The notes under the pieces: generated by a model | The model's input: only the letters and a program-made list of their open reading frames with translations | Databases searched by the model: none | What the model was told of the DNA's origin: nothing | Assembly (NCBI GenBank): GCA_937868095.1 | Contig: CALMLO010000014.1 | Coordinates: 186,001 to 250,000 of the forward strand | Source: an uncultured Phycisphaerales bacterium | GTDB taxonomy: Bacteria > Planctomycetota > Phycisphaerae > Sedimentisphaerales > Anaerohalosphaeraceae | Length of the DNA stretch: 64,000 bases | Direction of reading: 5' to 3' | Translations under genes and position numbers: made by a program | Shown here: one piece after another, positions 27,914-44,182 of the stretch | Numbering within the stretch: position 1 is the first letter of the stretch | How the letters are laid out: the number at the start of each line of letters is the position of its first letter

Positions 27914-29101
27914 ATGAGTTATTCCTTAGAGTCCATTTTCAAAACCACCTATTGGGCGATCAGCCGGCACTCGGAGGCGCTCAATATTCTTCAGCAAAAG
28001 GCGGCGACCGGACAGGATCTCAGTCGCGTATCGGATGATCCCAGCCATGCCAATCAGATTCTCGGTTTTCAGTCGGATCAGCGGAAGAAGGAAGTTTATT
28101 TGAATACGATGGAAGAAGCCATCAGCGTTCTGGACTTAAGTTCGTCAGTCGTCCAGAGCATTATGAGTGAGATGGCCAACGCCCGCGCTTCGCTGGCTTC
28201 GACCATGTCCGGCACAACCAGTTCGCAGGTGCGCCGCACCCTGGCTACGGAGCTGAATAATGCATTGGAGCAGGTTGTCTCGTTCGCTAATTCGGAACGG
28301 CTCGGCCAGTATTTGTTTGCAGGAGCGAATTCAGAACAGGCCCCCTATCAGGTGGAACGAGACGGAAACGGTCAGATTATCCGGGTGAACTATCAGGGCA
28401 GCCAGCAGGAGCAGAATGTGGAAATCATCCAGGGGATGGAACTGTCGGCTCTGCTGGTGGGAGATCAGCTTTTCCGCGACGATAGCCGTCAGACGCCGGT
28501 ATTTTACGGTTCTACCGGGGTTGCGGCGGGCAGCGGAACCTCCAGTGTGCGGGGAGATGTGTATTTGACTGTAGCCGGTTCGCCGGGGAATTATCAGCTG
28601 TCGATCGATGGGGGAGCCAGCTGGATGACGGTGGATGGGACAGAAACCAATGTCGCCGTCGTGAACTCCCAGACCGGCGAGGTCCTCTATGTAGATGCAA
28701 CCGGCATTCAGCAGACCGGTACCGAGCCCGTCCGGGTTCCCGGAACCTACGATATTTTCAATATTCTTATTTATGCCAGAGATTTGCTGAATAACAATCA
28801 GAATTTGGATGACGAGACGCTGGATGAGCTGATGGCAGCGACGCTGACTTCAATGCAGGAGGTCGAAGAAAAACTGACGCGGTCGTTTCCGGTCATTGGA
28901 GGCCGCATCGAGACGCTCAGCAATCTGAAGGACAGCGTGGAGGATTTGAAGGTCAATTCAGAAGACGAAGTGAGCCGTCTGCTGGATGCGGATATTACCC
29001 AGCTGGCCATTGATTTGGCCAGGCATCAAATGCTTTATGAAATGTCGCTCACGGCGGCTTCTAAGATTTTTTCTACTTCTTTGCTGGATTTTCTTGAGTG
29101 A
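27914..29101 (+). CDS. flgL: Hook-filament junction protein FlgL
   Basis: A 395-residue flagellin-like protein. The N-terminal heptad region (LNILQQKAATGQDLSRVSDD; then QILGFQSDQRKK) and the C-terminal ITQLAIDLARHQMLYEMSLT with ASKIFSTSLLDFL are diagnostic of FlgL. AGAGAGGATAAGCG precedes the ATG. The central region is longer than in enteric FlgL. It ends where the glycosyltransferase cluster begins. Confidence 0.94.
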   Translation: MSYSLESIFKTTYWAISRHSEALNILQQKAATGQDLSRVSDDPSHANQILGFQSDQRKKEVYLNTMEEAISVLDLSSSVVQSIMSEMANARASLASTMSGTTSSQVRRTLATELNNALEQVVSFANSERLGQYLFAGANSEQAPYQVERDGNGQIIRVNYQGSQQEQNVEIIQGMELSALLVGDQLFRDDSRQTPVFYGSTGVAAGSGTSSVRGDVYLTVAGSPGNYQLSIDGGASWMTVDGTETNVAVVNSQTGEVLYVDATGIQQTGTEPVRVPGTYDIFNILIYARDLLNNNQNLDDETLDELMAATLTSMQEVEEKLTRSFPVIGGRIETLSNLKDSVEDLKVNSEDEVSRLLDADITQLAIDLARHQMLYEMSLTAASKIFSTSLLDFLE

Positions 29102-29115
29102 AAAGGGCTTTGCAG

Positions 29116-30561
29116 ATGCAAATGGACTCGCCAACTTTTTTGTATCGTCAGGCCGTGCAGCTGGCGAAAGAAAAACAGACCGTTTCTGCCATGCACGCTA
29201 TAGAAGAGTTTCTGAAAGCCAGGCCGACGCATGGGCCGGGCTGGCACCTGGCGGGCCGGCTGGCGATGGAGATGGGAGATTATCAGCGGGCGATACAGTT
29301 TTTTCAGCGTTGCCTTTCGCTTCTGGATGGCCCGAAAGAGGCCGTCGAAGATTTGGCGGCGGCCTGGCTGAAGATGAATCGGCCTCAGCAGGCCGTACGG
29401 CTGCTGCGGACTATGAAGGCGGAGAATTGCTGGAGCGAAACACTGGCTCTCGAAACCGCCGGCTGTTTTCTGCGGCAGCAGGAGCCGGCAGCGGCAATGG
29501 ATGTTTTTCAGATGGGACAGCGCTGTTCGCGGCACCCTGCCGTTTTTGATGGGTTGATTGAACAATTGAAAGTTCAGCGACCGAAAGTCGCCTTTTTCTG
29601 CGGTGCTGACGGAGACACATTTTTGAAACCCATTTTGTCCTATCTTCGGCCGCGCTACCCCCTTCGCGTCTTCAGCGGCTCCCAAGCCGATGAAGTGAAG
29701 GAATTGATGGAATGGAGCGATATTTCCTGGTTTGAATGGGCCGGCGGTCTGGCACAAATCGGTTCTCATCTGCCGAAGACCTGCCGGATAATTGTCCGGC
29801 TGCATCGATATGAGGCCTATTTGCCATGGCCCAGGCAAATTCACTGGCCCAATGTGGATGTGCTGGTTACGGTGGGCAATTCTTATGTAATTCGAGCGCT
29901 GGAGCATTGGGTGCCGGATATTCGTCAGCAAACAGCAATTGTCCGCATCCCCAATGGGGTGGATGTAGAAGCCATTCCTTTTGTGCAGCGGAAAAGAGGC
30001 AAACATATTGCGTTTATCGCTTCCTGCCGGATGGTGAAAAATCCGATGTTCTTGCTCCAATGTATGGCTTATCTTCATCAGATGGATCCGGAATATCAGC
30101 TGTTCATTGCGGGCAAACTCGATGATTTGCTTATCCGCCAGTATCTGGAGCATCAGATTCAAGTCCTCGGGCTGGGCCAGGCGGTGCATTTTGACGGATG
30201 GGTGGAGGATATTCAGGGCTGGCTGGCTGATAAACATTATGTGGCGGTCAGCAGTCTGATTGAGAGCCAGGGAATGGGTGCCCTGGAAGCAATGGCGGCC
30301 GGACTCAAGCCGGTCATTCATCATTTTCCGGGAGCCGAAGAGATTTACGGCAAAGAGTTTCTGTTTAGCACGCCGGAGGAGTTTTGCGAACAGATTTTGT
30401 CAGAGCCATACGAACCGGCGGTTTACCGGCAGTTTGTGGAGCAGCGATATCCGCTTCAGCGGACTCTCCGCTTGATTGATGAATTGATAGATTCCTTTGA
30501 ACAAACGGAAATTAGCCCGGCAGCGAACCATCTGGCGGAGGATGCAGTTGGCGTCGGATAG
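29116..30561 (+). CDS. TPR-glycosyltransferase fusion (GT-B fold, GT4-like)
   Basis: A 481-residue predicted cytoplasmic transferase. Residues about 1-150 are TPR-like helices (FLKARPTHGPGWHLAGRLAM; YQRAIQFFQRCLSLLDG). Residues about 160-460 resemble a GT-B glycosyltransferase of family 4 type, with an RIPNGVDVEAIPF segment, IAFIASCRMVKNPMFLLQCM, and SSLIESQGMGALEAMAAGLK in place of the ExE region. The ATG at 29116 was preferred to a GTG overlapping the flgL stop because AAGGG lies 9 bases before it. It probably modifies flagellin or a hook-associated protein; the donor sugar is unknown. Confidence 0.82.
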   Translation: MQMDSPTFLYRQAVQLAKEKQTVSAMHAIEEFLKARPTHGPGWHLAGRLAMEMGDYQRAIQFFQRCLSLLDGPKEAVEDLAAAWLKMNRPQQAVRLLRTMKAENCWSETLALETAGCFLRQQEPAAAMDVFQMGQRCSRHPAVFDGLIEQLKVQRPKVAFFCGADGDTFLKPILSYLRPRYPLRVFSGSQADEVKELMEWSDISWFEWAGGLAQIGSHLPKTCRIIVRLHRYEAYLPWPRQIHWPNVDVLVTVGNSYVIRALEHWVPDIRQQTAIVRIPNGVDVEAIPFVQRKRGKHIAFIASCRMVKNPMFLLQCMAYLHQMDPEYQLFIAGKLDDLLIRQYLEHQIQVLGLGQAVHFDGWVEDIQGWLADKHYVAVSSLIESQGMGALEAMAAGLKPVIHHFPGAEEIYGKEFLFSTPEEFCEQILSEPYEPAVYRQFVEQRYPLQRTLRLIDELIDSFEQTEISPAANHLAEDAVGVG

Positions 30562-30594
30562 AAGTGTTTGAAGTTTTGACATGTGTTTATCCGA
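30554..30594. repeat. Inverted repeat upstream of a sigma-54 promoter
   Basis: TCGGATA (30554-30560) and TATCCGA (30588-30594) are exact reverse complements 27 bases apart. They lie 50-90 bp upstream of the -24/-12 element at 30644. A CGGATT dyad lies upstream of the flgB sigma-54 promoter too, so these may be activator half-sites. Confidence 0.4.
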
Positions 30595-30643
30595 GGGGTC
30601 AAGATTCCTTCTGTTTCCGCTCGAAAAAGGCAAAATTGACTTT

Positions 30644-30659
30644 GGGCATAGGATTTGCA
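30644..30659 (+). promoter_or_regulatory. Sigma-54 promoter of the glycosyltransferase operon
   Basis: GGGCATAGGATTTGCA has GG and GC at the correct spacing and shares 13 of 16 bases with the flgD element (TGGCATAGCAGTTGCA). It ends 51 bases before the next start codon, in the only sizeable gap between flgL and the large transferase genes. Confidence 0.65.
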
Positions 30660-30710
30660 CAAAAAACAGAAAAACCATAGACAGTTCTAATCTCTTTAGG
30701 GAGTGTGAAG

Positions 30711-32405
30711 ATGTCCGGACCGGATAAAAAAGTATTGGTGCAGGCAGCAGAATTGGCGGAGAAAGGGCAATATGAACAAGCCTTGGGACTCTTGCAAAGT
30801 TATCTGAAGGAACATCCCCAGGATCCGGAGGCCCTCAATGATGCCGGTACAATCCTGTATTGTCTTCATCGAGGGCAGGAGGCCATTGAGTATTTTCAAA
30901 AGGCCCGCTCCTTGAGCCGTGGGGAAATCCTTGCCCAGGTTCTTTTTAATCTTTGCGAGGTCTATCTGGCAGAACGTTGTCCCGAGGAGGCAGTCGGGCT
31001 GCTGGATGAGATGACCTCTCATAACATTCTGAATGTGGACACGCTCAATCGGATTGCCCAATGTTTTGTAGATAAGAATGCATTAGGGCCGGCGATTGAG
31101 ATGCTGCTGTACTCGCTGCGACTGGCCCCCAATCAGGAAATCCTGCGTCCGATGCTCGAGATTATCCGAAGCAGGCGGGCGGCTGTCTTTTTGTATGGGG
31201 AGCAGGAGCGTCGGCTGGAAGGGCTTCAATCCTATCTTCAGGAAAGGTATCGGGTTTATCCCTGTATCGGAGGCAATCTGCCGGCTGTCGGAGAAGGAAT
31301 CTTCCGGCAGGCGGTATCGATTTTTGCCGGCATCAGCAGGGCTCTGCTCGACAGTCGTTATCAGAGAGGGCCTTCGATTCTCTTTTTAGATTATGAAGAT
31401 TTGGGCAATCCTGCAATAGAACAGATTGACTGGACGGGCATCCAGGCACTGTTTGTCCCCTGCACGGCTGTTGCCGAACAGATTCGGCAGTGTTTGGGGA
31501 CGATTCCTTCCGCCGTGCGGGTTGGAACAATCGGACCCAGTGTCGATGCGGAGACGATCGGCTTTTTGGAACGAAAGAAAGGCAAACGCCTGGCGGCTGT
31601 CGGCCCCTGGACGGCTCATCACAATCCGATGTTTCTGCTGCATTGTATGCAGAAACTGCACTATCTCGATGCAGATATGCGGCTCTATTTGGCCGGCGAG
31701 TTTGAGGATGAATCCGTCCGGCAGTATGTCGAATCGATGATTGAAGCGATGGGGCTGGACAATGCGGTCTTTCTCGATGGGGTGCCCCGCAACTGGCAGC
31801 GGTGGCTGAAAGATAAGCACTACATTGTTTCTGCGGCGGTGGATGGACGGGCGATGCCGTCGGTTTTATGCGGAATGGCGGCTGGACTTCGTCCGGTTGT
31901 GCATCAATTCCCGGGGGCGTCGGAGTTTGTGGAGCCCCAGTATCAGTTCCTGCTGGCGGAAGATTTCTGTCGGCAGATTCTGGAAGGGGCCTATGAACCG
32001 CAGCGGTATCGGGAATGGGTGGTCGATCATTATTCACCCGTGCAGATTTATCTGCCGCTGGTGCGGGTTCTTTCGGAAATGGAACATCAACTGATGCTCC
32101 AGTCAGGCGGGCCGCAAGCACAAGAGCAGCCGACTTTTAAGCCGGCTTCAGCGGAGTATTCTCCTGCATGCCGTCCTGTGCCGATTTCTTCGCCGGTTCC
32201 TTCCGTCAAGGCGGCGGCGGAACCGCCCGTACCTTCTTCTTCGACATCAGAATCAGAGATGGAAGAAACAATTGAAGAGTTGGCACGGAAGGCCTTGGAA
32301 GCAGCCCAGCGGCTTTCATCCTTTTCAGGAAAGGTTGGTTCGGCACCGGCGGGGGCGGCGGCGTGCAGCAGCCCGGAAAGGAGTCCGTCCGCCAGCCCTT
32401 TTTAG
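30711..32405 (+). CDS. TPR-glycosyltransferase fusion, paralogue of the preceding gene
   Basis: A 564-residue paralogue of the 29116-30561 product. TPR helices (YEQALGLLQSYLKEHPQDPE) precede a GT-B/GT4-like domain (HNPMFLLHCMQKLHYLDADM; VLCGMAAGLRPVVHQFPGAS). The last ~110 residues are Pro/Ser/Ala-rich and then helical, with no domain recognised. The ATG at 30711 has AGGGAG 8 bases upstream. Its end overlaps the next frame by 43 bases. With its sigma-54 promoter it starts the main glycosylation operon. Confidence 0.82.
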   Translation: MSGPDKKVLVQAAELAEKGQYEQALGLLQSYLKEHPQDPEALNDAGTILYCLHRGQEAIEYFQKARSLSRGEILAQVLFNLCEVYLAERCPEEAVGLLDEMTSHNILNVDTLNRIAQCFVDKNALGPAIEMLLYSLRLAPNQEILRPMLEIIRSRRAAVFLYGEQERRLEGLQSYLQERYRVYPCIGGNLPAVGEGIFRQAVSIFAGISRALLDSRYQRGPSILFLDYEDLGNPAIEQIDWTGIQALFVPCTAVAEQIRQCLGTIPSAVRVGTIGPSVDAETIGFLERKKGKRLAAVGPWTAHHNPMFLLHCMQKLHYLDADMRLYLAGEFEDESVRQYVESMIEAMGLDNAVFLDGVPRNWQRWLKDKHYIVSAAVDGRAMPSVLCGMAAGLRPVVHQFPGASEFVEPQYQFLLAEDFCRQILEGAYEPQRYREWVVDHYSPVQIYLPLVRVLSEMEHQLMLQSGGPQAQEQPTFKPASAEYSPACRPVPISSPVPSVKAAAEPPVPSSSTSESEMEETIEELARKALEAAQRLSSFSGKVGSAPAGAAACSSPERSPSASPF

Positions 32406-33274
32406 CGGAGGAAAATACCGAGCCGGCGGTTGAACCAGCCGAAGACGAGTTGCCCAAGCCCGCCGTCCGTGGCGGAAAACGCACAAGGGTGCTGATTGTT
32501 CCGCCGCCGGGACTTTTGTCGGTCTTGCTGGCCGAGCCGGCCATCCGAGCATTTGGGCAGGCGGAAGCTTCGAGCCGGGAGATTACAATCTGCCATGAGT
32601 ACGCCGATTTATTCATCGGACATCCGGGAGTACGCGGGCTGGCTTATGGAGATGCCGGTGAACTGAACGAATCGTTCGACAAGGTGATTTATCTGCGGGG
32701 TGAGCCGCGGAAAGGAGCCGCTATGGACTGGATGTTTGATGCAGCAGGACAACTGGGGGTGCGGCTGGAGCACCAGACTCCTCAAATCATTCTGAACAGT
32801 TTTGATTTTGTCCGCACGCAGCGGTTTGGGTTGTCAAAGGTGCCTCGTCCCCGTGTGGTACTGGCGCCGCTTTCGGACAGTGCGGAAAGCTGGCTGGCTG
32901 CTCATTCAGTCGAACTGGCTCAACTCTTGAAGCAGAAACTGGGCGCAGGGCTTGTATATGCAGGAGGCGGGATTGGACCGGCAGCGGAAGGAGCCAAAGA
33001 CCTTCGGGGAAAACTGACGGCCCGCGAGATTGCCGCGGTGCTCCAGCAGTGCGATTTGCTCATCAGTGAAGAGGAAGAGACCGCCGCGCTGGCGGCTGCG
33101 ATTCATCTGCCGATTGTATATCTTGGAAAAAATTCATGGGATTGCTGGCCGATGAAGGAAGGAAGCAGCATTATTTCTATTTGTCCGACCGGCCCTGAGG
33201 ATGTGCTGGGGGCCGTCGCACGGCTGAATCCGGCATGGAACGCAGGGCGGACAACAGAGGGAACTGTTCAATAA
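32363..33274 (+). CDS. GT9-like glycosyltransferase (heptosyltransferase fold)
   Basis: About 303 residues, possibly fewer because the start is unsure. The GTG at 32363 lies within the end of the preceding gene and has no ribosome site. The frame is open upstream to 32276 but contains no ATG. Features of ADP-heptose:LPS heptosyltransferase-like proteins are visible (RVLIVPPPGLLSVLLAEPAI; LVYAGGGIGPAAEGAKDLRG; LTAREIAAVLQQCDLLISEE). The substrate site looks weakened: the family's usual GxD-type motif is LLISEEEE here. It is in the -1 frame relative to its neighbour, so translational coupling or frameshifting is conceivable. Confidence 0.68.
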   Translation: MQQPGKESVRQPFLAEENTEPAVEPAEDELPKPAVRGGKRTRVLIVPPPGLLSVLLAEPAIRAFGQAEASSREITICHEYADLFIGHPGVRGLAYGDAGELNESFDKVIYLRGEPRKGAAMDWMFDAAGQLGVRLEHQTPQIILNSFDFVRTQRFGLSKVPRPRVVLAPLSDSAESWLAAHSVELAQLLKQKLGAGLVYAGGGIGPAAEGAKDLRGKLTAREIAAVLQQCDLLISEEEETAALAAAIHLPIVYLGKNSWDCWPMKEGSSIISICPTGPEDVLGAVARLNPAWNAGRTTEGTVQ

Positions 33275-33277
33275 ACA

Positions 33278-34918
33278 ATGACGGCTAAACGTTCACAGCA
33301 TGGTCCGCTGGTGAGTGTTCTTATCAGCACCTACAACCGGCCCCAGTATCTGGAGGAGGCGCTGGAAAGTATTTTTGCGCAGACATGGCCGCATCTGCAG
33401 GTAGTGCTGGTGCGGGATGGAGGGGCAGCCGTGGAGGACGTGGTGCGTCGGTTTTCGGATCGGCGGCTGACCTTTATTAATCGGTCTGAAAATCGCGGGC
33501 TGCCGTATTCCTTTAATGAGGCCCTGGCCCACGCCCGCGGAGAGTATATCTGTTATTTGGGGGATGATGACAAGTTTTATCCTCACCATGTGCAGCGTCT
33601 GGTGGAGGCGATACAAAGCCAGGACCGCTGCGGCGCAGTGTACAGCGACTTGTATAAAGTGCACTGCCGTCTGAAGCCGGATGGACGCCGGATTGTTCTG
33701 GCAAAAAATCTTGAAATCAGCCGCGACTTTGACCGGATGCTGATGCTTCAATTCAATCATGTGCTTCACGTAAGCGTCCTCCATCGAAAGGATTTGCTCG
33801 AACGAGCCGGCGGATACAACGAGAAACTGAATGTTCTGATTGACTGGGATTTAAACCGCAAACTGTGTTTTTATACGGATTTCCTCCACATCCCGGAGAT
33901 TACAGGTGAATATTACGGCCCGGTCGGCGAGTGCGATCGGATTTCCGTTCAGCGCCGCAAGAATGTAAAGGACTATTTGCGGAATGTGCTGACAATCCGC
34001 ACAACCCGGCCTCCCAAACCCTGGCCGTGTATCGAGGATTTGTCCGTTTTGATTTTGGCGGAGCGGCTTGATGAATCGCTGGAGCAGACCCTGCGGGATT
34101 TATGGTCGCATACCTTTTATCCGCAGCAGATTTATGTGCCTCTTTCGAGGGAAGAGGCAGCGGGCTGGAAGCCGGCCGTGCCGAACGTGATTCCGGTTCT
34201 CGTCGAGCCGCAGTCGCCGCTGGAGCAGCGGATAGACCGGATGCTGGCCGTCTGTGAAGGAACGTATGCGGCACTGGTGCCGACAGGCCTGCCAGTAGAG
34301 ATGGACGAGGTGGCCTGGCTGGAGCGTTCTCTCCAGCCGCTGCTGATGTGCCGCCGACCCAATCAGGCCTTCGAACTGGCAGAAGCGACCGACAGCCGCT
34401 GGGGGGCGGTCTTCCGCAAGTCGGAACTGGAGTATGCCCGCCGGCAGTTTAACCATCTGCCGCTTCGCCGCGCCGTGGAGGCAGCCGGCATTTGTATTCG
34501 CAAGCCAGCCTTTGAAGAGTATCCTTTTCAGTTTGATCATTTTCTGGCTGCAGCCGAACAGAAGCAGCAGGAAGGGGACTGGGTGTATGCGGCCAAGGTT
34601 TATGAATACTTGGCTGAGCATTTCGGCAATGAACTCTGGATGCGGACCCGACAGGCCCACGCCCTGGAACAGGCAGGCCGTTTGGCAGAGGCAAGGGAGA
34701 CGCTCGAGCAGGTTCAGGCAGTTCGCCCGACGGTTTCATCGCTCTTGATTGCCGCTCGAATCTGTCAGAAACAAAAAAACTATCGCCAGGCGATCGATTT
34801 TTATGAACAGGCCCGAATGGTCCTTGAGACCAGGGACCGGTGCAGGAGAATTGTTTCTCCGGCCCGACGCAAAACATCGTGGAAGCCGGCTTCTGATGAA
34901 CCGGCGATGGTATCGTAG
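33278..34918 (+). CDS. GT2 glycosyltransferase with C-terminal TPR region
   Basis: A 546-residue protein. Residues about 9-230 are a GT2 (GT-A) domain: LVSVLISTYNRPQYLEEALE, a donor-binding LVRDGG segment, and the metal-binding CYLGDDDKFYPHHV (a DDD in place of DxD). Residues about 240-400 look like a second, degenerate GT-A domain (LSVLILAERLDESLEQTLRD) without a DxD. Residues about 420-520 are TPR-like. It begins 3 bases after the previous stop. It is likely part of the same glycosylation system. Confidence 0.82.
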   Translation: MTAKRSQHGPLVSVLISTYNRPQYLEEALESIFAQTWPHLQVVLVRDGGAAVEDVVRRFSDRRLTFINRSENRGLPYSFNEALAHARGEYICYLGDDDKFYPHHVQRLVEAIQSQDRCGAVYSDLYKVHCRLKPDGRRIVLAKNLEISRDFDRMLMLQFNHVLHVSVLHRKDLLERAGGYNEKLNVLIDWDLNRKLCFYTDFLHIPEITGEYYGPVGECDRISVQRRKNVKDYLRNVLTIRTTRPPKPWPCIEDLSVLILAERLDESLEQTLRDLWSHTFYPQQIYVPLSREEAAGWKPAVPNVIPVLVEPQSPLEQRIDRMLAVCEGTYAALVPTGLPVEMDEVAWLERSLQPLLMCRRPNQAFELAEATDSRWGAVFRKSELEYARRQFNHLPLRRAVEAAGICIRKPAFEEYPFQFDHFLAAAEQKQQEGDWVYAAKVYEYLAEHFGNELWMRTRQAHALEQAGRLAEARETLEQVQAVRPTVSSLLIAARICQKQKNYRQAIDFYEQARMVLETRDRCRRIVSPARRKTSWKPASDEPAMVS

Positions 34919-34929
34919 GAGAGCAGTGT

Positions 34930-35559
34930 ATGGATTTCGCAGGCGCATTGCAGAATCCGGATCAGGGATGGATGCAGCGGTATGATGTGCTCAAAGAGCT
35001 GGGAGACTGCTACGCCTCGGTGGGTGAGTATGACAATGCCCGCCGGTGCTATGAGCAGGCGTCGTGGCTGGAGCCGGACGAAGCCGGGCCGTATGTGGGC
35101 ACCGGCGTCATTGAACTTCAGCAGGGCCGGCTGGAAGATGCGGAGCTGGCCTTTCGGGTGGCGCTGCGGCTGGACGGCTGCAGCAGCCGCGCCTATGCGG
35201 GCCTGGCGATGATTGCACAGCAGTGCGGCCGTCTTCAGCAGGCCTTTGATTATTATCTGAAAAGTCTGGAACTGGACAGCAATCATCTGACGGCACTGCT
35301 GGGACTTTTTCAAGTCTCCTGCCAGATGGGCACGTTCAGCCAGGTGATTCACTATCTCCAGATATATCTGCAAGTCCATCCGGCCGATACGGCCGTGATG
35401 TTTTGTCTGGCGGCACTCTATGCCAAAGAAGGCCGGATTCAGCGGGCGAAAGACCTCCTGAAGGATATTCTGGCGCTGGAGCCCGGCCATGAAGATGCCC
35501 GCCAGCTGCTCGAAGAAATGGAACATAAAGCCATGCAGAAAGGTGGGTATTCTTTATGA
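34930..35559 (+). CDS. TPR-repeat protein
   Basis: A 209-residue protein made almost entirely of about six tetratricopeptide repeats (GDCYASVGEYDNARRCYEQA; IAQQCGRLQQAFDYYLKSLE; YAKEGRIQRAKDLLKDILAL). It has no signal peptide. The ATG at 34930 follows AGGAGAGCAGTGT. TPR proteins of this kind scaffold protein complexes, and here it may organise the transferases. It overlaps the next gene by 4 bases. Confidence 0.85.
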   Translation: MDFAGALQNPDQGWMQRYDVLKELGDCYASVGEYDNARRCYEQASWLEPDEAGPYVGTGVIELQQGRLEDAELAFRVALRLDGCSSRAYAGLAMIAQQCGRLQQAFDYYLKSLELDSNHLTALLGLFQVSCQMGTFSQVIHYLQIYLQVHPADTAVMFCLAALYAKEGRIQRAKDLLKDILALEPGHEDARQLLEEMEHKAMQKGGYSL

Positions 35560-35903
35560 GCAAACCAACCTCCCCTTTGTCTGCGAAAGCAGACGAGAAG
35601 GAAAACGAAGCCCGGCAGCTGCTCGGTTATTTAGCGGACCTGCTGGAGCGGCAGCTGGAGAAACTGCGCAAGTATGACTTGGACGGCGCGGTTCGCCTGG
35701 CAGAGGAATCGCAGCGCGTTTCCGAGCAGGTTGCCCGAGAGGGTCTGCTGGAACGGCCCTGCTATGCTTCCCAGAAGCAGAAAATTCAGGGACTCTATCA
35801 GGATGTATGTCTGATAATTGCCTCCCAGCGACAGGAAGTAGCCGAAAAATTGCGTCAGATTCGCGAAGGAATCCGGACGCTGGCCAGATATGCGGAGCAA
35901 TAA
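35556..35903 (+). CDS. FlgN/FliT-like small helical protein, putative chaperone
   Basis: A 115-residue, wholly alpha-helical, charged protein (ARQLLGYLADLLERQLEKLR; CLIIASQRQEVAEKLRQIRE). Size and helical-hairpin character resemble FlgN/FliT export chaperones. It is distinct from the flgN at 25256. An ATGA overlap couples it to the TPR gene. It could be the chaperone for FliD, encoded downstream, or for flagellin, but no specific motif proves this. Confidence 0.6.
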   Translation: MSKPTSPLSAKADEKENEARQLLGYLADLLERQLEKLRKYDLDGAVRLAEESQRVSEQVAREGLLERPCYASQKQKIQGLYQDVCLIIASQRQEVAEKLRQIREGIRTLARYAEQ

Positions 35904-35947
35904 GAGTTCTGTTTCAGCAAGGAAATTCGATAAGGGACACGGATAGA

Positions 35948-38900
35948 ATGATTTTACTCCCTTTAACACCCACGACCCCTGTTCTTCGCAAGAAGGCAGC
36001 TTACGAAGAAATTTCCCCGGAGAAGGTGCTGTCAATTCTTGGTTCCCCTGCTGTGCAGGCCGGCGTTCTTGAGGCATGGCGTTTTGTTGAGACAGATGTC
36101 CCTATTCAGGAGCAGATCGCTGTATTGCGTAAGCATATTGCCGACAACCAGCCGTTTTGGAATCTCTATGTAGGGCTGGCGTATGCGGCCCAGGTACTTC
36201 AGCCGAGAACGTATCTGGAAATTGGTGTACGGACCGGCTGCTCTATGGTTCAGGTCCTGGCTCACAGCTGTCTGCAGGGGGTAGTGGGGGTGGACTTATG
36301 GACAGGAAATTATGCGGACCTGCCCAATACTCTTACCTATGCGAAAAAACAGATTGAAAACTTCTGCCGAAAAACAGGCCGAACCGTTCCCGTGCATCTG
36401 ATTCAGGGAGATAGTCATCAGATTCTTAAACAGCTTATTCAGGCACAATGCCGATTCGATTTGATTACAGTAGATGGAGACCATTTCGAAAAGGGGGCCT
36501 GGGAGGATTTGATTGATGCACGAGCGTTGCTGGCGGACCGGGGAGCAATTGTGTTTGATGATATTGTGCACCCCGCTTTTCCGTTCTTGATGGATGTGGC
36601 AAAGCGGTTTGTCCGATCTTTTCCGGAGTTTCAGATTTTGATGAATTCCACTCAGGATAACGGCTGCGCCATCCTTCTGAAAGGAATAGAAGCAGCGGAC
36701 TTTCTCCGGCTTGAAAGCGATCAGCAGGAGCCGAAGAACCATCTGAAGGTCGCAGAAGAGTATGTCAAAAACGGAATGATGATTCAGGAGAGTTCTGCGT
36801 TTGCAGAGGCGATTGGTCAGGTTATTCGGGAGTATCGGCCGAAAAAGATTCTGGAGACCGGTACCTATCTGGGGCAGGGCACAACGGCCGTCATCGCCGA
36901 GGCAATGAAGCAGAACGGCATTGACGGCACCTTTTTTACCATCGAGGTCAATCCTCGTTATCACGCACAGGCCAAAGCATATCTGGAGAGCAAGGGCTAT
37001 CCGGTTCAGGCGCTTTGCGGTTTGTCGATTCCGAGGCGGCTGCTGCCCAGCCGTGAACAAATTCAGCAGACAACCACGGCCGTGCAGGACGAAACCCTTT
37101 TCGTTGACCATCCGGAGCCGGTTCGGGCCCAGCGCTACTATCAGGAAACGGATTTTCCCGATGTGCCGGATGATTTGCTCGGCAAGTGCCTGGCAGACTT
37201 TGACGGCAGGCCGGATTTGGTTCTTTTGGACAGCGCCGGTCATCTGGGCTGGATTGAGTTTCAGTACCTGCTCGAGCGGCTCAAAGGCCCCTGTATCCTT
37301 GCGCTGGATGATATTGACCATATCAAGCACCATCGCAGTTTTCAGCACATGCAGAAGGACAGCCGGTTTGAGATTTTAATTTCTTCCAATGAAAAGTTCG
37401 GCTTCTGCATCGCCCGCTTTGATCCGCAGCGCCGCAGCTGCCCCCAGCCGCATCCGCTTGAACCGAAGCATATTTTGTGGCTGCGTCCGGATGCGATCGG
37501 CGATGGGATTCTTTCCTCGGCGATGCTGCCGAGAATCCGCCGGCGTTTTCCTTCCGCTCGTCTGACAGTTTTTGTTCAGCAGGCCGTCGCCCCCCTCTAT
37601 GAGACCTGTCCGTTTGTGGATGAAATCCTCTGTTTTCAGCCGGAGGAAACAAATGACCCGGTGCAGTTTCTTCGCCGCTGGTCGGAGCGGATTTGGACAC
37701 TGGGGGCGGATTGTCTGCTTCATTCGGTTTATTCCCGGCAGTTTCTGATGGATGGGCTGGTCTATGCCTCCGGCATCCCCGAGCGAATTGGAATGGAAGG
37801 AAACTGCTGTAATATTCATCCTGAGAAGAAGGCCAAATCAGACGGCTGGTACACATGGCTGATTCCCAGCGAGGGGGACTGGAAACCGGAATTGGAGCGG
37901 CATCGGGATTTTCTGAGGGGCTTGGGGTGCGATGACCAGCCGCTCAAGCCGATCGTTTGGCTGACCGCAGAGGATGAGGCCTATGCTCACAAATGGCTGG
38001 AAGAAAACCAAATAAATCCAGAGCAGCTGGTTGTTTTATTTGCCGGCGCACGCGTGTCTCTTCGGCACTATGAGGGCTATGGAAAAGCGCTGGAAGAGAC
38101 AGCCCTCAAGCATCGGCTGGCAGTGGCGGCATTAGGAGCAAAAGAGGATTTTGAAATCAATCAGAGAAATTTGGATTGGCTCAAGGAACGAGGGATTCGC
38201 ACCTTCAATCTGTGCGGCCGGCTCAGTCTGCGTCAAAGTGCTGCAATCCTGAAACAGTGCCGCCTGGCTGTCGGAGCCGAGACGGGGCTGGCCCATCTGG
38301 CGGCGGCGGTAGATGTGCCCCATGTGGTAGTCATCGGCGGCGGTCATTTTGGACGGTTTATGCCCTACAGCCCGAAAACGACTTTGGCCGCTCTTCCGTT
38401 GGACTGTTATGGATGCAACTGGCTGTGCCGGTATGAGCAGGAGCGAAATTACTGTATTCAGGACCTTCAGCCGGCTGTGCTCTCAGAGGCCGTTCGGGAA
38501 ACATTCGAAAAATCCTCTTCTAAACCGAGAATCTTTATTCAGGACCAGCCCTTGTATAAAAAGCCGGAATCCGGCCCCTCCTGGAAACTCTTCTCGAAAT
38601 TTATTGACACCAGCACGGTTGAAATCTGCCGTGTATCTCATCCCCAAAAGGATTCCCAAACGCACACGCCATCGCTGCCCGCAGCACCCGCTGTGCTTCG
38701 AAGCAAAGAGCACCTGCCGGCTGGTGCTTTTCCAAAGATTACCGTCGTAACACCCTCGTATAATCAGGCGCCGTATTTAGAGGAATGTATTCAGTCGGTT
38801 TTGAGCCATGGCTATCCGAATCTGGAATATATCATTATGGACGGCGGCAGCACGGATGGCTCAGTGGAGATTATTAAAAAATATGAAAAGTATCTGACGT

Positions 38901-41290
38901 ACTGGCAAAGCAAGCCGGACGGCGGCCAGTATGCCGCCGTCGAAGAGGGATTCAGACGTTCGACAGGAGAAATCCTCACCTGGATTAATTCGGATGATAT
39001 GCTGCTTCCGGGCGCTTTGCGGAAAGTGGCGGCAATCTTTTTAAATCGGCCCGATGTTCAGTGGATTACTGGAAAAGTTTGTCTTCTCGAAGCAGATGGG
39101 ACGATTCATTATGCCGCTCTTGCTCCGGTTTTTTGGAACCGGGCAAGATACCTTGCGAAAGACTATAAATATATTCAGCAGGAAGGTTCTTTTTGGCGAA
39201 GGCAGCTGTGGGAGAAGGCCGGAGCTTTCCTATGGAAAGAATCCCGCTTAGCGGGCGATTTAGAACTGTGGAATCGTTTTTTCCGTCACGCGGACTTATA
39301 CACAGCCGAAGCTTTCTTAGGGGCTTTTCGCATGCAGCCGAATCGAAAGACCGCTTCGCTTATCGAAAAGTATAATCAGGAAGCAGAGGCCGTCCTCGAG
39401 GCGGAATTGCAGCAGTACGCAAGCCAGCCGGTTCACAGCCGCCCGCCCCTTCGAAAGCCTCCGCAGCCTATTACAGAACTGGAAATCAGCCGTTATCTGG
39501 AAATCTTCCCAGACCAGCAGCCGTCCCAGCCGGTTCAGATTCCTTCCTCCGGCAATTTTCTGGTAAGTGCTATTGTTTCCACTTATAACGCGGAAGCGTT
39601 TATTCGCAGCTGTTTGCAGAATTTGGTGGAGCAGACCCTCTTTCAGAAGGGGCAAATGGAGATTCTTGTGGTGGACAGCGGTTCCCAGCAGAATGAAGGG
39701 CGGATTGTCCGCCAGTTTCAGTCCTGCTATCCCAATATCCGGTATTTGCGAACCCCTCAGCGGGAGCCGATTTATGCGGCCTGGAACCGGGCGATTCGGC
39801 TGGCCTCAGGCAAATATCTCACCAGTGCCAATACCGATGACCGCCACCGCCCGGATGCCCTCGAGATTCTCGCAGAAACTCTCGAGAAGAATCCGAAGAT
39901 TGCTCTGGTTTACAGCGACCAGGTGATTGCTCCAATTCCTCTGGAGCGTTTTTCTGCGCGTTGGGGCCAGCTGATTCCCCGGCCTGATTACAGCTATGAG
40001 CGGCTTTTGTTCGGCTGCTGTGTCGGCTCTCAGCCGATGTGGCGAAAGTCGCTTCACGAGGAGTTCGGGCTTTTTGATGAAACGCTCACCGTAGCCGGCG
40101 ACTGGGATTTCTGGCTGCGGATTGCGTCACGCTATCCTTTCCAGCGAGTGCCGGAGTTTCTCGGTGTGTATTATAATAATCCGGCCAGCGCAGAACATGG
40201 CCGGCCGATTCATTCCCTCTATGAGCGGTATCTCGTCGGCAAACGATACGGCAATCCGCATATTTCGATCATTCCTCCGTGTGTCAGGAAAGACAACCCC
40301 CTCGTGTCGGTGATTCTGCCTGTTTACAATGGAGCCGATTATATTGCAGAAGCCATCGAGAGCGTTCTGATTCAGAATTATCCGCATTTGGAGCTGCTGA
40401 TTATCAACGACGGCTCGGAAGACAATACAGAGGAAATTGTCAAAAGATTTTCTGATGAGCGCATCCGGTATTTTCTGCAGAACCATGGGGGGCCGTCCGC
40501 GGCCCGCAATGAAGGGATCCGCCGTTCCAAGGGACAATTTCTGGTGATGCTTGATCATGATGATTATCTGACGGCGGATCATATCGGACAAATGCTGACG
40601 GCTTATGACCGCTATCCGGAAGCCGACCTGATTTATTGTGATACACTTCTGCTCAATGAAGAAGGCAAAGCCCTGCGTGTTCATCAGCGGAAGGAGTTTC
40701 AGAATCCGAATTATCTGATTCAGGAGATTTTTCAGGCCGGTTTTCCCATCGTTCCTTTTCGGACCTGCATTCGGCGTCGTGTTTTTGAGAAGATTGGAGA
40801 GTATGATCCTTCACTGTGGGTGGCCGAAGATTACGATATGTGGCGCCGATTCCTGAAACAGGGCTTGATTTTCCGGCATTGGCCCAAATCGTATTATTGC
40901 CGCAGAATACGCCGGAATGCCCATTCCAGAATCATCACGCCGGAAAAGGCCCGGATGCATTTCCAAGTGCTTCAAAGGTATCTGGAGACTTTCGAGCCCC
41001 AGCAGCTGTTTCCAGACGTGCGATGGGACTCTTATACGGGTTTCCAAAAAGAGTTTTTGTTTCATTTGAGGGTGTGCGGAGTCTTTGTCGCACTGGGCGA
41101 ACAGTATAAAGAAACAAAAATGTCTGCATGTCTGGTCCAATTGGCCTGTGAACAGGCCGTCCGGCATCTGGAAATCTGCCGATCGATTTATCCGGAGCAG
41201 CCGGCGATTGTCTCGCTGGAGCAGCGATGTCAGGCCCTGTTCACGGATTCAGAATCCTCGAATGTTCTGCAGGAGAGTGTGTCAGGATAA
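35948..41290 (+). CDS. Giant multi-domain methyltransferase-glycosyltransferase protein
   Basis: A 1780-residue protein without signal peptide or membrane helix. The ATG at 35948 was chosen because the frame upstream overlaps the previous gene and has no domain. Modules in order: class I methyltransferase-like (about 60-250; TYLEIGVRTGCSMVQVL, LITVDGDHFEKG); a second one (about 265-490; ILETGTYLGQGTTAVIAEAM); a GT9-like domain (about 505-850; WLRPDAIGDGILSSAMLPRI, LAVGAETGLAHLAAAVDVPH); then three GT2 domains at about 928-1150 (ITVVTPSYNQAPYLEECIQS, INSDDM), 1203-1420 (VSAIVSTYNAEAFIRSCLQN, NTDD) and 1450-1690 (VSVILPVYNGADYIAEAIES, LDHDDY). All three GT2s keep plausible metal-binding acidic pairs. 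It lies between flgL and fliD, so glycan assembly and methylation on flagellin is the favoured role. Confidence 0.85.
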   Translation: MILLPLTPTTPVLRKKAAYEEISPEKVLSILGSPAVQAGVLEAWRFVETDVPIQEQIAVLRKHIADNQPFWNLYVGLAYAAQVLQPRTYLEIGVRTGCSMVQVLAHSCLQGVVGVDLWTGNYADLPNTLTYAKKQIENFCRKTGRTVPVHLIQGDSHQILKQLIQAQCRFDLITVDGDHFEKGAWEDLIDARALLADRGAIVFDDIVHPAFPFLMDVAKRFVRSFPEFQILMNSTQDNGCAILLKGIEAADFLRLESDQQEPKNHLKVAEEYVKNGMMIQESSAFAEAIGQVIREYRPKKILETGTYLGQGTTAVIAEAMKQNGIDGTFFTIEVNPRYHAQAKAYLESKGYPVQALCGLSIPRRLLPSREQIQQTTTAVQDETLFVDHPEPVRAQRYYQETDFPDVPDDLLGKCLADFDGRPDLVLLDSAGHLGWIEFQYLLERLKGPCILALDDIDHIKHHRSFQHMQKDSRFEILISSNEKFGFCIARFDPQRRSCPQPHPLEPKHILWLRPDAIGDGILSSAMLPRIRRRFPSARLTVFVQQAVAPLYETCPFVDEILCFQPEETNDPVQFLRRWSERIWTLGADCLLHSVYSRQFLMDGLVYASGIPERIGMEGNCCNIHPEKKAKSDGWYTWLIPSEGDWKPELERHRDFLRGLGCDDQPLKPIVWLTAEDEAYAHKWLEENQINPEQLVVLFAGARVSLRHYEGYGKALEETALKHRLAVAALGAKEDFEINQRNLDWLKERGIRTFNLCGRLSLRQSAAILKQCRLAVGAETGLAHLAAAVDVPHVVVIGGGHFGRFMPYSPKTTLAALPLDCYGCNWLCRYEQERNYCIQDLQPAVLSEAVRETFEKSSSKPRIFIQDQPLYKKPESGPSWKLFSKFIDTSTVEICRVSHPQKDSQTHTPSLPAAPAVLRSKEHLPAGAFPKITVVTPSYNQAPYLEECIQSVLSHGYPNLEYIIMDGGSTDGSVEIIKKYEKYLTYWQSKPDGGQYAAVEEGFRRSTGEILTWINSDDMLLPGALRKVAAIFLNRPDVQWITGKVCLLEADGTIHYAALAPVFWNRARYLAKDYKYIQQEGSFWRRQLWEKAGAFLWKESRLAGDLELWNRFFRHADLYTAEAFLGAFRMQPNRKTASLIEKYNQEAEAVLEAELQQYASQPVHSRPPLRKPPQPITELEISRYLEIFPDQQPSQPVQIPSSGNFLVSAIVSTYNAEAFIRSCLQNLVEQTLFQKGQMEILVVDSGSQQNEGRIVRQFQSCYPNIRYLRTPQREPIYAAWNRAIRLASGKYLTSANTDDRHRPDALEILAETLEKNPKIALVYSDQVIAPIPLERFSARWGQLIPRPDYSYERLLFGCCVGSQPMWRKSLHEEFGLFDETLTVAGDWDFWLRIASRYPFQRVPEFLGVYYNNPASAEHGRPIHSLYERYLVGKRYGNPHISIIPPCVRKDNPLVSVILPVYNGADYIAEAIESVLIQNYPHLELLIINDGSEDNTEEIVKRFSDERIRYFLQNHGGPSAARNEGIRRSKGQFLVMLDHDDYLTADHIGQMLTAYDRYPEADLIYCDTLLLNEEGKALRVHQRKEFQNPNYLIQEIFQAGFPIVPFRTCIRRRVFEKIGEYDPSLWVAEDYDMWRRFLKQGLIFRHWPKSYYCRRIRRNAHSRIITPEKARMHFQVLQRYLETFEPQQLFPDVRWDSYTGFQKEFLFHLRVCGVFVALGEQYKETKMSACLVQLACEQAVRHLEICRSIYPEQPAIVSLEQRCQALFTDSESSNVLQESVSG

Positions 41291-41353
41291 GGCCTAAAGA
41301 TCTGCGGCATCTGTCGGTAAGGGAACGAGATAATCTGGCAGAGGATTATAGAA

Positions 41354-44182
41354 ATGAGTGATTTTTTCCAACGGGAAACGGTTGCGGTTTTGGCAACCAG
41401 TCTGACGCCCCGGAATATCGAGAATCAGCAGCAGGCAGTCCAGTCCTGGCGGAAAGCGGGGTTTGCCGTGCTGAGTATGAATCATCCGGAAGAGATGGCG
41501 GTCCTTCGTCCGCAGTTTCCGCAGGTTCGTTTCATCCCGGCCTCTCGAAACGGCCGTGAGTTTTTCGGCAAGCCGCTGATTTATATTGATGATCTTTTCG
41601 GAGCGCTGAAAGAAACCCAGTTTGAGATTGTCGGGATCATTAATTCGGATATTCATCTTTCGCTGGAACCGGTTCATCTGGACGCGATGGTTCGACAGAC
41701 GCAGGATGCCGTTATTTGCGTTAACCGGATGAATGTCAAGCGGCTGGGCGATGAGAACGCCGCAATTTTTATGAACGGTTTCGATGCTTTCTTTTTCCGC
41801 CGGGCCATGCTGGACCGGATTCCCCCTTCCCGTTTTTGCCTGGGGGTTGCCTGGTGGGATTACTATGTGCCGATCGTGTGCGTTTTAAACCGGATCCCGC
41901 TGGCTCGTTTCCAGGACCCGGTCGCCTATCATATCTTGCATCCGCTCAACTGGAACGAGAATCAATGGAACTATGCGGCCAAGTACTTCTTTGAGCGGCT
42001 GCTGGAACTGTGCGGACAGCACGAAGGATGCCATCCGTTCTGCAACCTGGGGTATAAACTCCGCGAGGCCTGGAAACTGTTTCATTTGATTCTCCTGAAT
42101 GACTGTCCGATATCTCTCATTCGCAAGAGTTATGTTTATGCCGAATTCATTCTGGGCATCATATACGGTCAAATGAAGGTGCTGGAGCCCCTTTGTCCGG
42201 ACCGCATGGAAAAGAATCCCTTTGCCCTGCCCGATTCAAGCAGGATCACACATGCTCTGGTAAGTCCATCGATGACACTGGTGGCGGTTGATAAGTCCGC
42301 CGGGCCGATGGTATCAGCCATTGTGTCCACGTATCAGTCAGAGGCCTTTATCGGCGGCTGCCTGCAGGATCTGGTCGAGCAGACGCTGTATCGGAAGGGG
42401 CTGCTGGAAATCATTGTGGTGGACAGCGGCTCGCCGCAGAATGAGGGGGCCATTGTCCGGGAATTCCAGAGCCGTTATCCGAATATCCGGTATATCCGGA
42501 CGCAGCAGCGTGAGACCATTTACGCAGCGTGGAACCGGGGGATTCGTGAAGCACGCGGTAAATATATCACCAATGCCAACACAGATGACCGCCACGCTCC
42601 CCTGATGCTCGAGATGCTGGCGGCGGCGCTGGAGGAAAGGCCGGATAAGGCGGCGATTTATTCGCATTTTTACATCACGGAGATTCCCAACCAAACCTGG
42701 CAAACCAAGACGCCTGTGCGGCTGGCCGACTGGCATCCGCCGTTTTCCCGAGAGGCGCTGCTGAAAGGCAATTTCATGGGACCGCAGCCGATGTGGCGTC
42801 GCTCGCTGCACGAGGAGTACGGCTATTTTGACCCCACGTTTCAGGTCTCCGGCGACTGGGAGTTCTTCCTGCGGGTTTCGCAGACTCACGAGTTTATCCG
42901 ATGCAGAGCCATCCTCGGCCTGTATTATTATAATCCGAAAAGTCTGGAACGCTCCGCCGGAACCCGGGAACAAGAAGACCGGTTTATTCGCGAACTTTAT
43001 ACAAAGAATCAGAATCGGATTATCCGCAGGCCCTTCCGTCCGGAAATGGAAAGTGCCTTTCCTGATTCGTCCATTCGGCACCAGCCGGTGCAGCAGGCCG
43101 CTCCTCGGCCCCTCATCAGCGTTTGCATGGTGACTTACAACGCCCAAGACAGCATTGTTCAGGCGATTCAGTCTGTTCTTTCTCAAACATATCAGCATTT
43201 TGAACTGCTGATTGTGGATGACGGCAGCACAGACCAGACCGGCCGGCTTGCTCAGTCTTTTTCGGATGCCAGAGTCCGCTATATCCGTCAGGAGCATAAG
43301 AACTTCGCAGCCGGAATGAATCGGGCTATTCAGCAGGCCCAGGGGGAGTTTATTCTCGGCGTAGATTCGGACGACTTTATTGCTCCGGATTATCTGGAAA
43401 AGATGGCGGCCTTTGCTCTGCAATACCCGGAGTACGATTATTATTATCCCGAAAAACTTACCCTCGTGGATGAAGCCGGCAATTACACCGGAACCGACTG
43501 GGAATACAATGACCTTCGGGACAGCAAATTGCTGCCGGCAATCCTGTTTGCAAAAGGAGCATCCCCGATTCCCAATTCGGGTTCGCTGAAGCGGCGTCAG
43601 ATGTTCGAACGAACCGGTCTCTTCCGTGAAATTGATAATGTGGAGGATTTTGATTTTCTGGCCCGCAACGCTCTTCAGATTCGCTTCCGGAAAGTTCAGG
43701 GCTCCTCCTGCTATTATTATCGTCGAAGTTCATCCACCAACAGCAGACGCTTTGAGCAGCGAAATCGCCTTACCGCGGCATGTCTGGATGAAATGATTCG
43801 ACATTATTCGCCGGCGCAGTTATGTCCGTTTTTGGCGGATGTATCAGAGGCGAGCGAACGAGAAAGAAGATTTTTAGACTATGTAATTTCTATATTTGAA
43901 AAACATGCCCAGGCATACCACGAAAGGGCGGGAGAAATCTTTCAGGAATATGCCGACAAATACAGACAAAAAAAGTCTGAAATAGGGGTTCAGCAAACCT
44001 TAAAGTTGGCCTTGAATTGCCTGGAGCAAAAGAACCCGATAAAAGCAGCCCAAATCTGTCGAGAAACATTGTCCAATAAAACCTTTATTCTGGATGGGAA
44101 AAGCAGACAGACTATCCAGACGCTCCTTTCCGAGATAGAATCCGTTCAGAAGGAGGAGGGTGAGCTTTTGCCTAAGTGTTGA
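41354..44182 (+). CDS. Three-module glycosyltransferase protein
   Basis: A 942-residue protein. Residues 1-300 form a GT-A-like domain not assigned to a family (VAVLATSLTPRNIENQQQAV, IVGIINSDIHLS, AWWDYYVPIVCVLNRIPLAR). A GT2 domain follows at about 318-560 (VSAIVSTYQSEAFIGGCLQD, NTDDRHAP) and a second at about 585-810 (LISVCMVTYNAQDSIVQAIQ, VDSDDFIAPDY). The C-terminal ~100 residues are helical. The first GT2 is closely similar to the second GT2 of the giant protein upstream, for example EQTL(F/Y), VVDSGS, QNEG and YAAWNR in register. It starts 63 bases after the giant gene. Confidence 0.85.
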   Translation: MSDFFQRETVAVLATSLTPRNIENQQQAVQSWRKAGFAVLSMNHPEEMAVLRPQFPQVRFIPASRNGREFFGKPLIYIDDLFGALKETQFEIVGIINSDIHLSLEPVHLDAMVRQTQDAVICVNRMNVKRLGDENAAIFMNGFDAFFFRRAMLDRIPPSRFCLGVAWWDYYVPIVCVLNRIPLARFQDPVAYHILHPLNWNENQWNYAAKYFFERLLELCGQHEGCHPFCNLGYKLREAWKLFHLILLNDCPISLIRKSYVYAEFILGIIYGQMKVLEPLCPDRMEKNPFALPDSSRITHALVSPSMTLVAVDKSAGPMVSAIVSTYQSEAFIGGCLQDLVEQTLYRKGLLEIIVVDSGSPQNEGAIVREFQSRYPNIRYIRTQQRETIYAAWNRGIREARGKYITNANTDDRHAPLMLEMLAAALEERPDKAAIYSHFYITEIPNQTWQTKTPVRLADWHPPFSREALLKGNFMGPQPMWRRSLHEEYGYFDPTFQVSGDWEFFLRVSQTHEFIRCRAILGLYYYNPKSLERSAGTREQEDRFIRELYTKNQNRIIRRPFRPEMESAFPDSSIRHQPVQQAAPRPLISVCMVTYNAQDSIVQAIQSVLSQTYQHFELLIVDDGSTDQTGRLAQSFSDARVRYIRQEHKNFAAGMNRAIQQAQGEFILGVDSDDFIAPDYLEKMAAFALQYPEYDYYYPEKLTLVDEAGNYTGTDWEYNDLRDSKLLPAILFAKGASPIPNSGSLKRRQMFERTGLFREIDNVEDFDFLARNALQIRFRKVQGSSCYYYRRSSSTNSRRFEQRNRLTAACLDEMIRHYSPAQLCPFLADVSEASERERRFLDYVISIFEKHAQAYHERAGEIFQEYADKYRQKKSEIGVQQTLKLALNCLEQKNPIKAAQICRETLSNKTFILDGKSRQTIQTLLSEIESVQKEEGELLPKC

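Follow-up and report, generated by a model that had tools for sequence, protein, structure and literature searches.

A probable flagellin glycosylation island between flgL and fliD in an uncultured Phycisphaerales bacterium

The 15.2-kb interval between flgL and fliD in the window studied here (the whole 64,000-nucleotide stretch of contig CALMLO010000014.1) is quite likely, on the best explanation taken whole, a flagellin glycosylation island. Two features are new: TPR-fused transferases form a conserved frame that accompanies a transferase array turning over within a genus, and flagellin architecture splits near-perfectly according to the presence of the island.

Gene content of the flgL-fliD interval

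Eight same-strand open reading frames fill the interval from the end of flgL to the start of fliD (Table 1). Six of them carry or resemble transferases, one encodes a TPR protein and one a FliT-like protein, and the earlier note's description of about 15 kb of glycosylation-type genes interrupting the flgL-fliD gene order thus holds. The ATG of GT4a at 29116 is preceded by AAAAGGG, and a GTG at 29098 is a possible alternative start; the frame of the multi-domain transferase opens at 35807 (up to 1827 aa) and its ATG at 35948 comes after the FliT-like gene. Promoter-like sites occur at chance level (10 versus 12.2 expected). Terminator-like sites number 31 against 21.0 expected (sd 5.0) and are scattered over both strands.

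Table 1. Features of the flgL-fliD interval and its borders (positions in the window)
Feature	Position	Strand	Domain evidence
FlgL, left border	27914..29101	+	PF00669 (Flagellin_N), 37.6 bits
GT4a, N-terminal TPR and GT4	29116..30561	+	PF13692, 60.7 bits; TPR_19
GT4b, TPR and degenerate GT4	30705..32405	+	PF13692, 25.6 bits (below cut-off)
P303, 303-aa ORF, GT9-like only by eye	32363..33274	+	
GT2-TPR, N-terminal GT2 and C-terminal TPR	33278..34918	+	PF00535, 89 bits; TPR_19
TPR protein	34930..35559	+	TPR_2, 71.8 bits
FliT-like small helical protein	35556..35903	+	
Multi-domain transferase	35948..41290	+	PF13578, PF01075, PF00535 x3
Multi-domain transferase, methyltransferase	36215-36565		MTase_24 (PF13578)
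Multi-domain transferase, GT9	37862-38413		PF01075
Multi-domain transferase, three GT2	38732-39361, 39557-40219, 40298-40969		PF00535 x3
942-aa protein	41354..44182	+	PF00535 x2
942-aa protein, two GT2	42305-42973, 43109-43783		PF00535 x2
FliD, right border	44290..46371	+	PF02465 and PF07195 (FliD_N, FliD_C)

Domains scoring over the Pfam cut-off are present in GT4a, GT2-TPR, the multi-domain transferase (MTase_24, GT9 and three GT2) and the 942-aa protein (two GT2), and the firm total is 10 modules: six GT2, two GT4, one GT9 and one methyltransferase. This total could possibly reach about 14 with four further candidates, namely a second stretch resembling a methyltransferase, the N-terminal domain of the 942-aa protein (no PHROG match, and a poor structure model with a pLDDT of 46), P303 and the second half of GT2-TPR, so that the "at least a dozen" modules of the earlier note are possible, with 10 of them firm. 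Its six transferase genes likewise stand as genes carrying or resembling transferases, but P303, whose orthologues are found within the genus and in part of the family, is counted only by eye because it has no match in Pfam or NCBIfam (PHROG also gave none). Several transferases had been said to be fused to TPRs, and GT4a, GT4b and GT2-TPR do all combine a TPR with a transferase domain. The unusual transferase richness is also real: the interval holds 6 of the 18 PF00535 domains in the 3.04-Mb genome where an even spread would put 0.09, although tandem modules are not independent of one another.

GT4b is homologous to GT4a (35% identity), and its GT4 domain falls slightly under the Pfam cut-off (25.6 versus 27 bits). 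The E-x7-E region, which we take as the motif by which to judge these two proteins, is intact in GT4a, and GT4b lacks both Glu residues of the motif in all 5 genomes for which it was displayed; judged from these residues, GT4b is probably inactive.

Conservation and turnover among relatives

In the genomes compared, the flgL-fliD slot contains transferases in 28 and none in 10. Thirteen genomes from three families, out of 150 of the class, carry strong GT4a orthologues, and these adjoin flgL wherever that end is visible. The transferase array beside them differs even between congeners (the last GT2 module of the 942-aa protein is 50-65% identical among the relatives compared); thus there is no single glycan, and the "phylum-specific glycan" suggested earlier has to be given up, as models of the FliT-like protein, GT4a, GT4b, P303 and D_N also found nothing at any of 36 fliD loci outside the family (L041-L076). 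Island presence and content vary among relatives in the way known for flagellin glycosylation islands. The congener G318 and two further relatives, G315 and G322, have larger islands of 29-47 kb, and in all three NeuB and DegT sugar-synthesis genes occupy the same slot, which makes a flagellin glycosylation island the likely reading. The window's copy retains only transferases: Pfam found no sugar-synthesis gene among the eight proteins of its 15.2-kb interval.

Could these genes instead serve the envelope, the S-layer or an exopolysaccharide and lie among flagellar genes by accident? The GT2, GT4 and GT9 modules do resemble envelope polysaccharide transferases, and the array of one congener includes a capsule-type domain (PF10364). 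However, the eight proteins include no flippase, exporter, polymerase or membrane transferase (none has a predicted membrane segment, and all look soluble), the synteny with flgL is kept across three families, and the transferases are fused to TPRs. We disfavour this reading and consider it very improbable. Comparison of the relatives did not show the genes to be envelope polysaccharide genes, and the synteny, the lack of predicted membrane segments and the NeuB and DegT genes of the three relatives all bear out the earlier note's view of a filament-modification locus.

The TPR and FliT-like genes, which remain in island-less relatives, are best read as flagellar rather than glycosylation genes. 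The FliT-like gene is kept in all 10 of these, there directly before fliD, and the TPR protein in most of them (G278, G297, G300, G327, G310, G419, G404 and G449; it is absent from G307). At an E-value of up to 1, 13 of 22 FliT-like orthologues match the Pfam FliT family (PF05400; best 0.0023) and the window's own copy does not. Its structure model has three helices at low confidence and gave no match in a fold search at E up to 0.001, and when a profile of the orthologues was searched against PDB sequences no FliT turned up, the best hit being a designed protein (E 0.0054). Of the "FlgN/FliT-like" label given earlier, the FliT half is retained by way of the orthologues; the clear FlgN gene sits elsewhere (25256-25765).

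Flagellin architecture and the island

All 20 island-bearing genomes with full-length flagellins have flagellins of 269-280 aa that lack an outer domain, and 9 of 10 island-less genomes have flagellins of 407-442 aa with an outer domain of 139-172 aa; long and short flagellins differ by one insert at one site. The exception is G310, which has a short flagellin and no island. A 395-aa flagellin in island-bearing G314 proved to be an upstream frame extension, and its three flagellins are 271-272 aa long. A Fisher test of island against flagellin length (16, 0, 1, 9) gives p 3e-6 but ignores relatedness.

We infer that flagellin is the substrate. The transferases might instead modify the hook-associated proteins FlgL, FlgK and FliD, or the hook, whose genes they adjoin, and their own place is indeed the stretch from flgL to fliD, with the flagellin genes of the window genome on other contigs. 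We think this unlikely, since it is flagellin architecture that tracks island presence and since three GT2-TPR genes immediately precede a flagellin gene and fliD in a different planctomycete family (f48).

It is quite possible, though we would stop short of calling it probable, that island and short flagellin are linked by co-inheritance only, two types of flagellar cluster having moved whole with no replacement of the outer domain. FliD, FlgK, FlgL and FlgI from genomes without the island tend to cluster across family lines, in conflict with the RpoB tree; 27 of the family's short flagellins form a single clade; and there are just 4-5 independent pairs, with which a sign test cannot reach 0.05. 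Against this, the traits stay matched although the flagellin genes of the window genome lie outside the flgL-fliD cluster, G431 (f93) as well as G346 and G368 (f103) have islands even though the flagellin tree places their short flagellins among long ones, and for two genomes flagellin length led us to predict the absence of an island ahead of retrieving the flgL regions, in which no frame genes were then found. That a glycan replaces the outer domain is thus a strong lead and not proof, because independent contrasts are few and whole flagellar clusters appear to have been exchanged. More broadly, we tentatively propose that in this planctomycete class the filament surface may be a swap between a protein outer domain and a species-specific glycan made by the flgL-fliD island, lineages switching from one to the other as a package and the glycan assuming both the structural and the antigenic role of the outer domain.

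Overall Ser/Thr content does not differ between the two groups, island-associated flagellins not being enriched. Short flagellins are richer in Ser/Thr at positions 83, 133, 157 and 175, but we do not press these as sites because they are mostly absent from the independent short lineages G431, G346 and G368.

Proposed mechanism and known systems

The island is probably transcribed together with the hook-filament genes. GT4a and GT2-TPR would bind flagellin in the cytoplasm and attach the first sugar, perhaps aided by the inactive-looking GT4b; flagellin specificity is described as coming from the TPR domains in Maf-1 and, in FlmG (PMC7591256), from a TPR-bearing N-terminal domain. The soluble multi-GT/methyltransferase proteins would then extend and methylate the glycan before export, with the neighbouring TPR and FliT-like proteins acting as ordinary filament-assembly factors. 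Since flagellins that accompany the island in these bacteria lack an outer domain, the glycan would probably form the outer surface of the filament.

If the glycan does stand in for the outer domain, this would point to a general explanation for the glycosylation of short flagellins. Filaments that lack this domain are a useful case because glycosylation sites are usually placed there, as described in PMC10889297, and the matched island-bearing and island-less genomes are a natural set on which to test the idea. Our literature searches listed no study of flagellin glycosylation in planctomycetes, and the locus gives them a defined target for filament glycoproteomics.

Variable islands inside the flagellar locus are described for Clostridium (the flagellar hypervariable region), Geobacillus and Enterobacteriaceae (PMC13317340, PMC5109656, PMC4875605). 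According to these accounts, the Clostridium region also contains fliT and NeuB-type pathways, in C. thermosuccinogenes the stretch from flgL to fliD contains glycosylation genes, and sugar-synthesis genes are used as the hallmark of the Enterobacteriaceae islands (PMC4875605). The window's interval differs in having no Maf gene (no Maf family among the Pfam matches of the eight proteins), and island presence shows no pattern with flagellin length in Geobacillus, whereas here the link is near-perfect.

A flagellin glycosylation island between flgL and fliC or fliD is a known kind of locus in a known place, as in Pseudomonas. The P. aeruginosa a-type island between flgL and fliC and the fgt1/fgt2 island of P. 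syringae, as described in PMC8306008 and PMC3927599, share with the window's interval this position, glycosyltransferase genes and variable content. In contrast, the right border here is fliD and not fliC, the frame consists of TPR-fused transferases, the flagellin genes are unlinked and the interval lacks sugar-synthesis genes. A single-protein parallel lies in architecture and size: FlmG, the soluble TPR and GT-B flagellin O-glycosyltransferase of Caulobacter (596 aa; PMC7591256), is described as having the N-terminal TPR and C-terminal GT-B-type domain that are seen in GT4a and, weakly, in GT4b (482-487 and 566 aa), but the island combines more than one kind of TPR-transferase with long multi-GT proteins as neighbours.

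Organization of the flgL-fliD interval

The 3.04-Mb genome containing the window is assembled in 69 contigs, and its FliD is 81% and 67% identical to those of the closest named relatives found, which are metagenome-assembled planctomycetes. Pfam profiles give the plus-strand order flgE, flgG, flgA, flgH, flgI, rod-binding protein gene, flgN, flgK, flgL, interval, fliD, and beyond fliD the export and motor genes flhB, fliR, fliP, motB, motA, fliI, fliG and fliF lie on the minus strand. The interval is 15,188 bp long, and its genes are tightly packed on one strand, the earliest possible start of the first being 14 bp past flgL; this spacing is compatible with a single transcription unit, which we infer. 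The 520-aa protein encoded beside flhB scores 31.5 bits with the FHIPEP (FlhA) profile, barely above the cut-off, and could be a divergent or otherwise odd form of FlhA; ORFs resembling it come after fliD in two fetched loci (L005 and L006).

Features of the flgL-fliD interval and its surroundings (window positions)
Feature	Position	Strand	Composition
flgL	ends 29101	+	
GT4a	29116-30561	+	TPRs N-terminal, GT4 domain C-terminal
GT4b	30705-32405	+	TPRs N-terminal, GT4 domain C-terminal
P303	32363-33274	+	303-aa ORF
GT2-TPR	33278-34918	+	opposite order: GT2 N-terminal, TPR C-terminal
TPR gene	34930-35559	+	
FliT-like gene	35556-35903	+	
Largest ORF	35948-41290	+	one methyltransferase, one GT9, three GT2 modules
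942-aa protein gene	41354-44182	+	two GT2 modules
fliD	starts 44290	+	
520-aa protein gene	46368-47930	-	FHIPEP match over first quarter only

None of the interval transferases scores above a curated NCBIfam cut-off. The highest 19-residue hydropathy average among the eight interval proteins is 1.74 (P303) and the others do not exceed 1.45, so all eight look soluble. Both glutamates of the GT4 motif E-x7-E are retained in GT4a of six genomes and absent from GT4b in the five genomes compared for it; lacking them, GT4b probably does not work as an enzyme. GT4b is kept within the genus, in the window and in relatives, despite this loss, and is likely a pseudo-enzyme retained as a partner.

The interval in related genomes

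FliD was matched in 28 of the 39 genomes of the window's family. The interval's state was readable for 38 genomes in and outside the family (several from one border only, due to contig ends; G295 was left out of the counts as ambiguous): 28 have transferases (island-bearing) and 10 do not (island-less). The 17 intervals measured range from 0.48 kb (G307) to 46.7 kb (G315). The island-less order is flgL, TPR gene, FliT-like gene, fliD; the TPR gene is absent from G307 and was not seen in G308, which is covered only between flgL and the FliT-like gene. The island form has a frame of GT4a, usually GT4b, sometimes P303, and GT2-TPR ahead of the TPR gene; between the FliT-like gene and fliD it carries an array that varies. 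In two genomes (G278 and G327) what remains next to the TPR gene is no more than a piece of TPR or a shortened TPR-GT4.

Within the genus it is the array that turns over. Frame genes there share 54-90% identity with those of the window, and the GT2 module nearest fliD is 50-65% identical among the relatives compared. The two methyltransferase stretches and GT9 are missing from G198, G251 and G318, and the first two of these genomes also lack the 942-aa protein's N-terminal domain; G198 carries FkbM methyltransferases in their stead. Twenty of the extra genes in the three large intervals were scanned (ten in G315, five in G322 and five in G318): each interval holds NeuB and DegT aminotransferases, and genes for formyltransferase, Gfo/Idh oxidoreductase, sulfotransferase and radical-SAM proteins each turn up in at least one. 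The window's own interval is the transferase part only. NeuB accompanies known flagellin glycosylation in Caulobacter (PMC7591256) and in the Clostridium NulO islands (PMC13317340). Near NeuB, DegT and sulfotransferase, the 46.7-kb interval of G315 carries a transketolase-like gene together with three radical-SAM genes (locus L160, 8976-15469), a combination that hints at some unusual sugar.

Searching 150 genomes of the class with the catalytic portion of GT4a gives strong matches (E < 1e-40) in 13, the best below these being 8e-22: seven of ten in the window's family, and two and four in families f93 and f103. GT4a directly follows flgL in G431, one additional GT2 gene intervenes in the four f103 genomes, and in G437 the contig starts within GT4a; GT2-TPR comes after GT4a in all six genomes outside the family. 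In a further planctomycete family, f48, four of six fetched loci (L056, L058, L059 and L061, at about 11.5-19.7 kb within each; not L057 or L060) have fliD and a gene of flagellin type, whose product is 308 aa long in both L056 and L058, immediately preceded by two or three genes of the GT2-TPR kind, which is a separate version of the same idea.

Flagellin length and the island

The window's genome encodes two flagellins (275 and 272 aa), both on contigs other than the window's; an ORF that looks FliS-like by eye comes after each gene, and the surrounding 16 and 14 kb that were fetched contain no GT match. All 20 island-bearing genomes with a start-corrected full-length flagellin have one of 269-280 aa (eight without a usable one were left out), and nine of ten island-less genomes have one of 407-442 aa, the exception being G310 (271 aa); in some genomes the best copy alone was taken at full length and the remaining copies by open-frame length. 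Alignment of 41 full-length flagellins places the difference in one insert of 139-172 aa at a single site, the outer domain, where short flagellins have 0-3 residues. Flagellin length predicted G307 and G308 to be island-less before their flgL regions were fetched, and no frame gene adjoins flgL in either (G307 was covered completely through to fliD). Across the class, most of the listed flagellin frames measure 390-690 aa. Three candidate short-flagellin exceptions (G426, G432 and G444) were rejected as cut at contig ends or masked.

Is this association independent of descent? An RpoB tree built from 35 genomes shows at least five changes of island state and six of flagellin state. Of four independent pairs on supported branches (five on all) an average of 3.9 of 4 run in the expected direction, but at least six pairs would be needed to reach p 0.05. 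In FliD, FlgK, FlgL and FlgI trees island-less genomes tend to cluster across families, contrary to RpoB, and seven form one FliD clade with support 100/100. The tendency to group with other families is seen in G297, G300, G307, G308 and G310 (loci L094, L091, L147, L146 and L163). Given this conflict, entire flagellar clusters have probably passed from lineage to lineage by exchange, and co-inheritance may account for part of the association. In the flagellin tree the short flagellins of G431, f103 and G310 sit among long ones, a placement that favours repeated over single change; short flagellins and islands occur together in G431 and f103, and G310 is short without an island.

Proposed function and known systems

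The filament-glycosylation island is genuine, well supported and of a known kind. Its TPR-transferase frame is unusual, and its association with flagellins that lack the outer domain is striking and testable. On the best reading, TPR-guided transferases would glycosylate flagellin in the cytoplasm, and soluble multi-GT proteins would then lengthen the glycan. A literature search listed no study dedicated to planctomycete flagellin glycosylation. As Shewanella demonstrates, O-glycans can be borne by flagellins at positions 106-185 (PMC11839096). No link to flagellin length was observed in Geobacillus (PMC5109656), unlike here. Pseudomonas islands occupy the same location as the window's (PMC8306008, PMC3927599). 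The proposed mechanism has analogues in FlmG, whose TPR-holding N-terminal domain binds flagellin (PMC7591256), and in Maf-1, whose acceptor specificity comes from its C-terminal TPR domain (PMC13317340).
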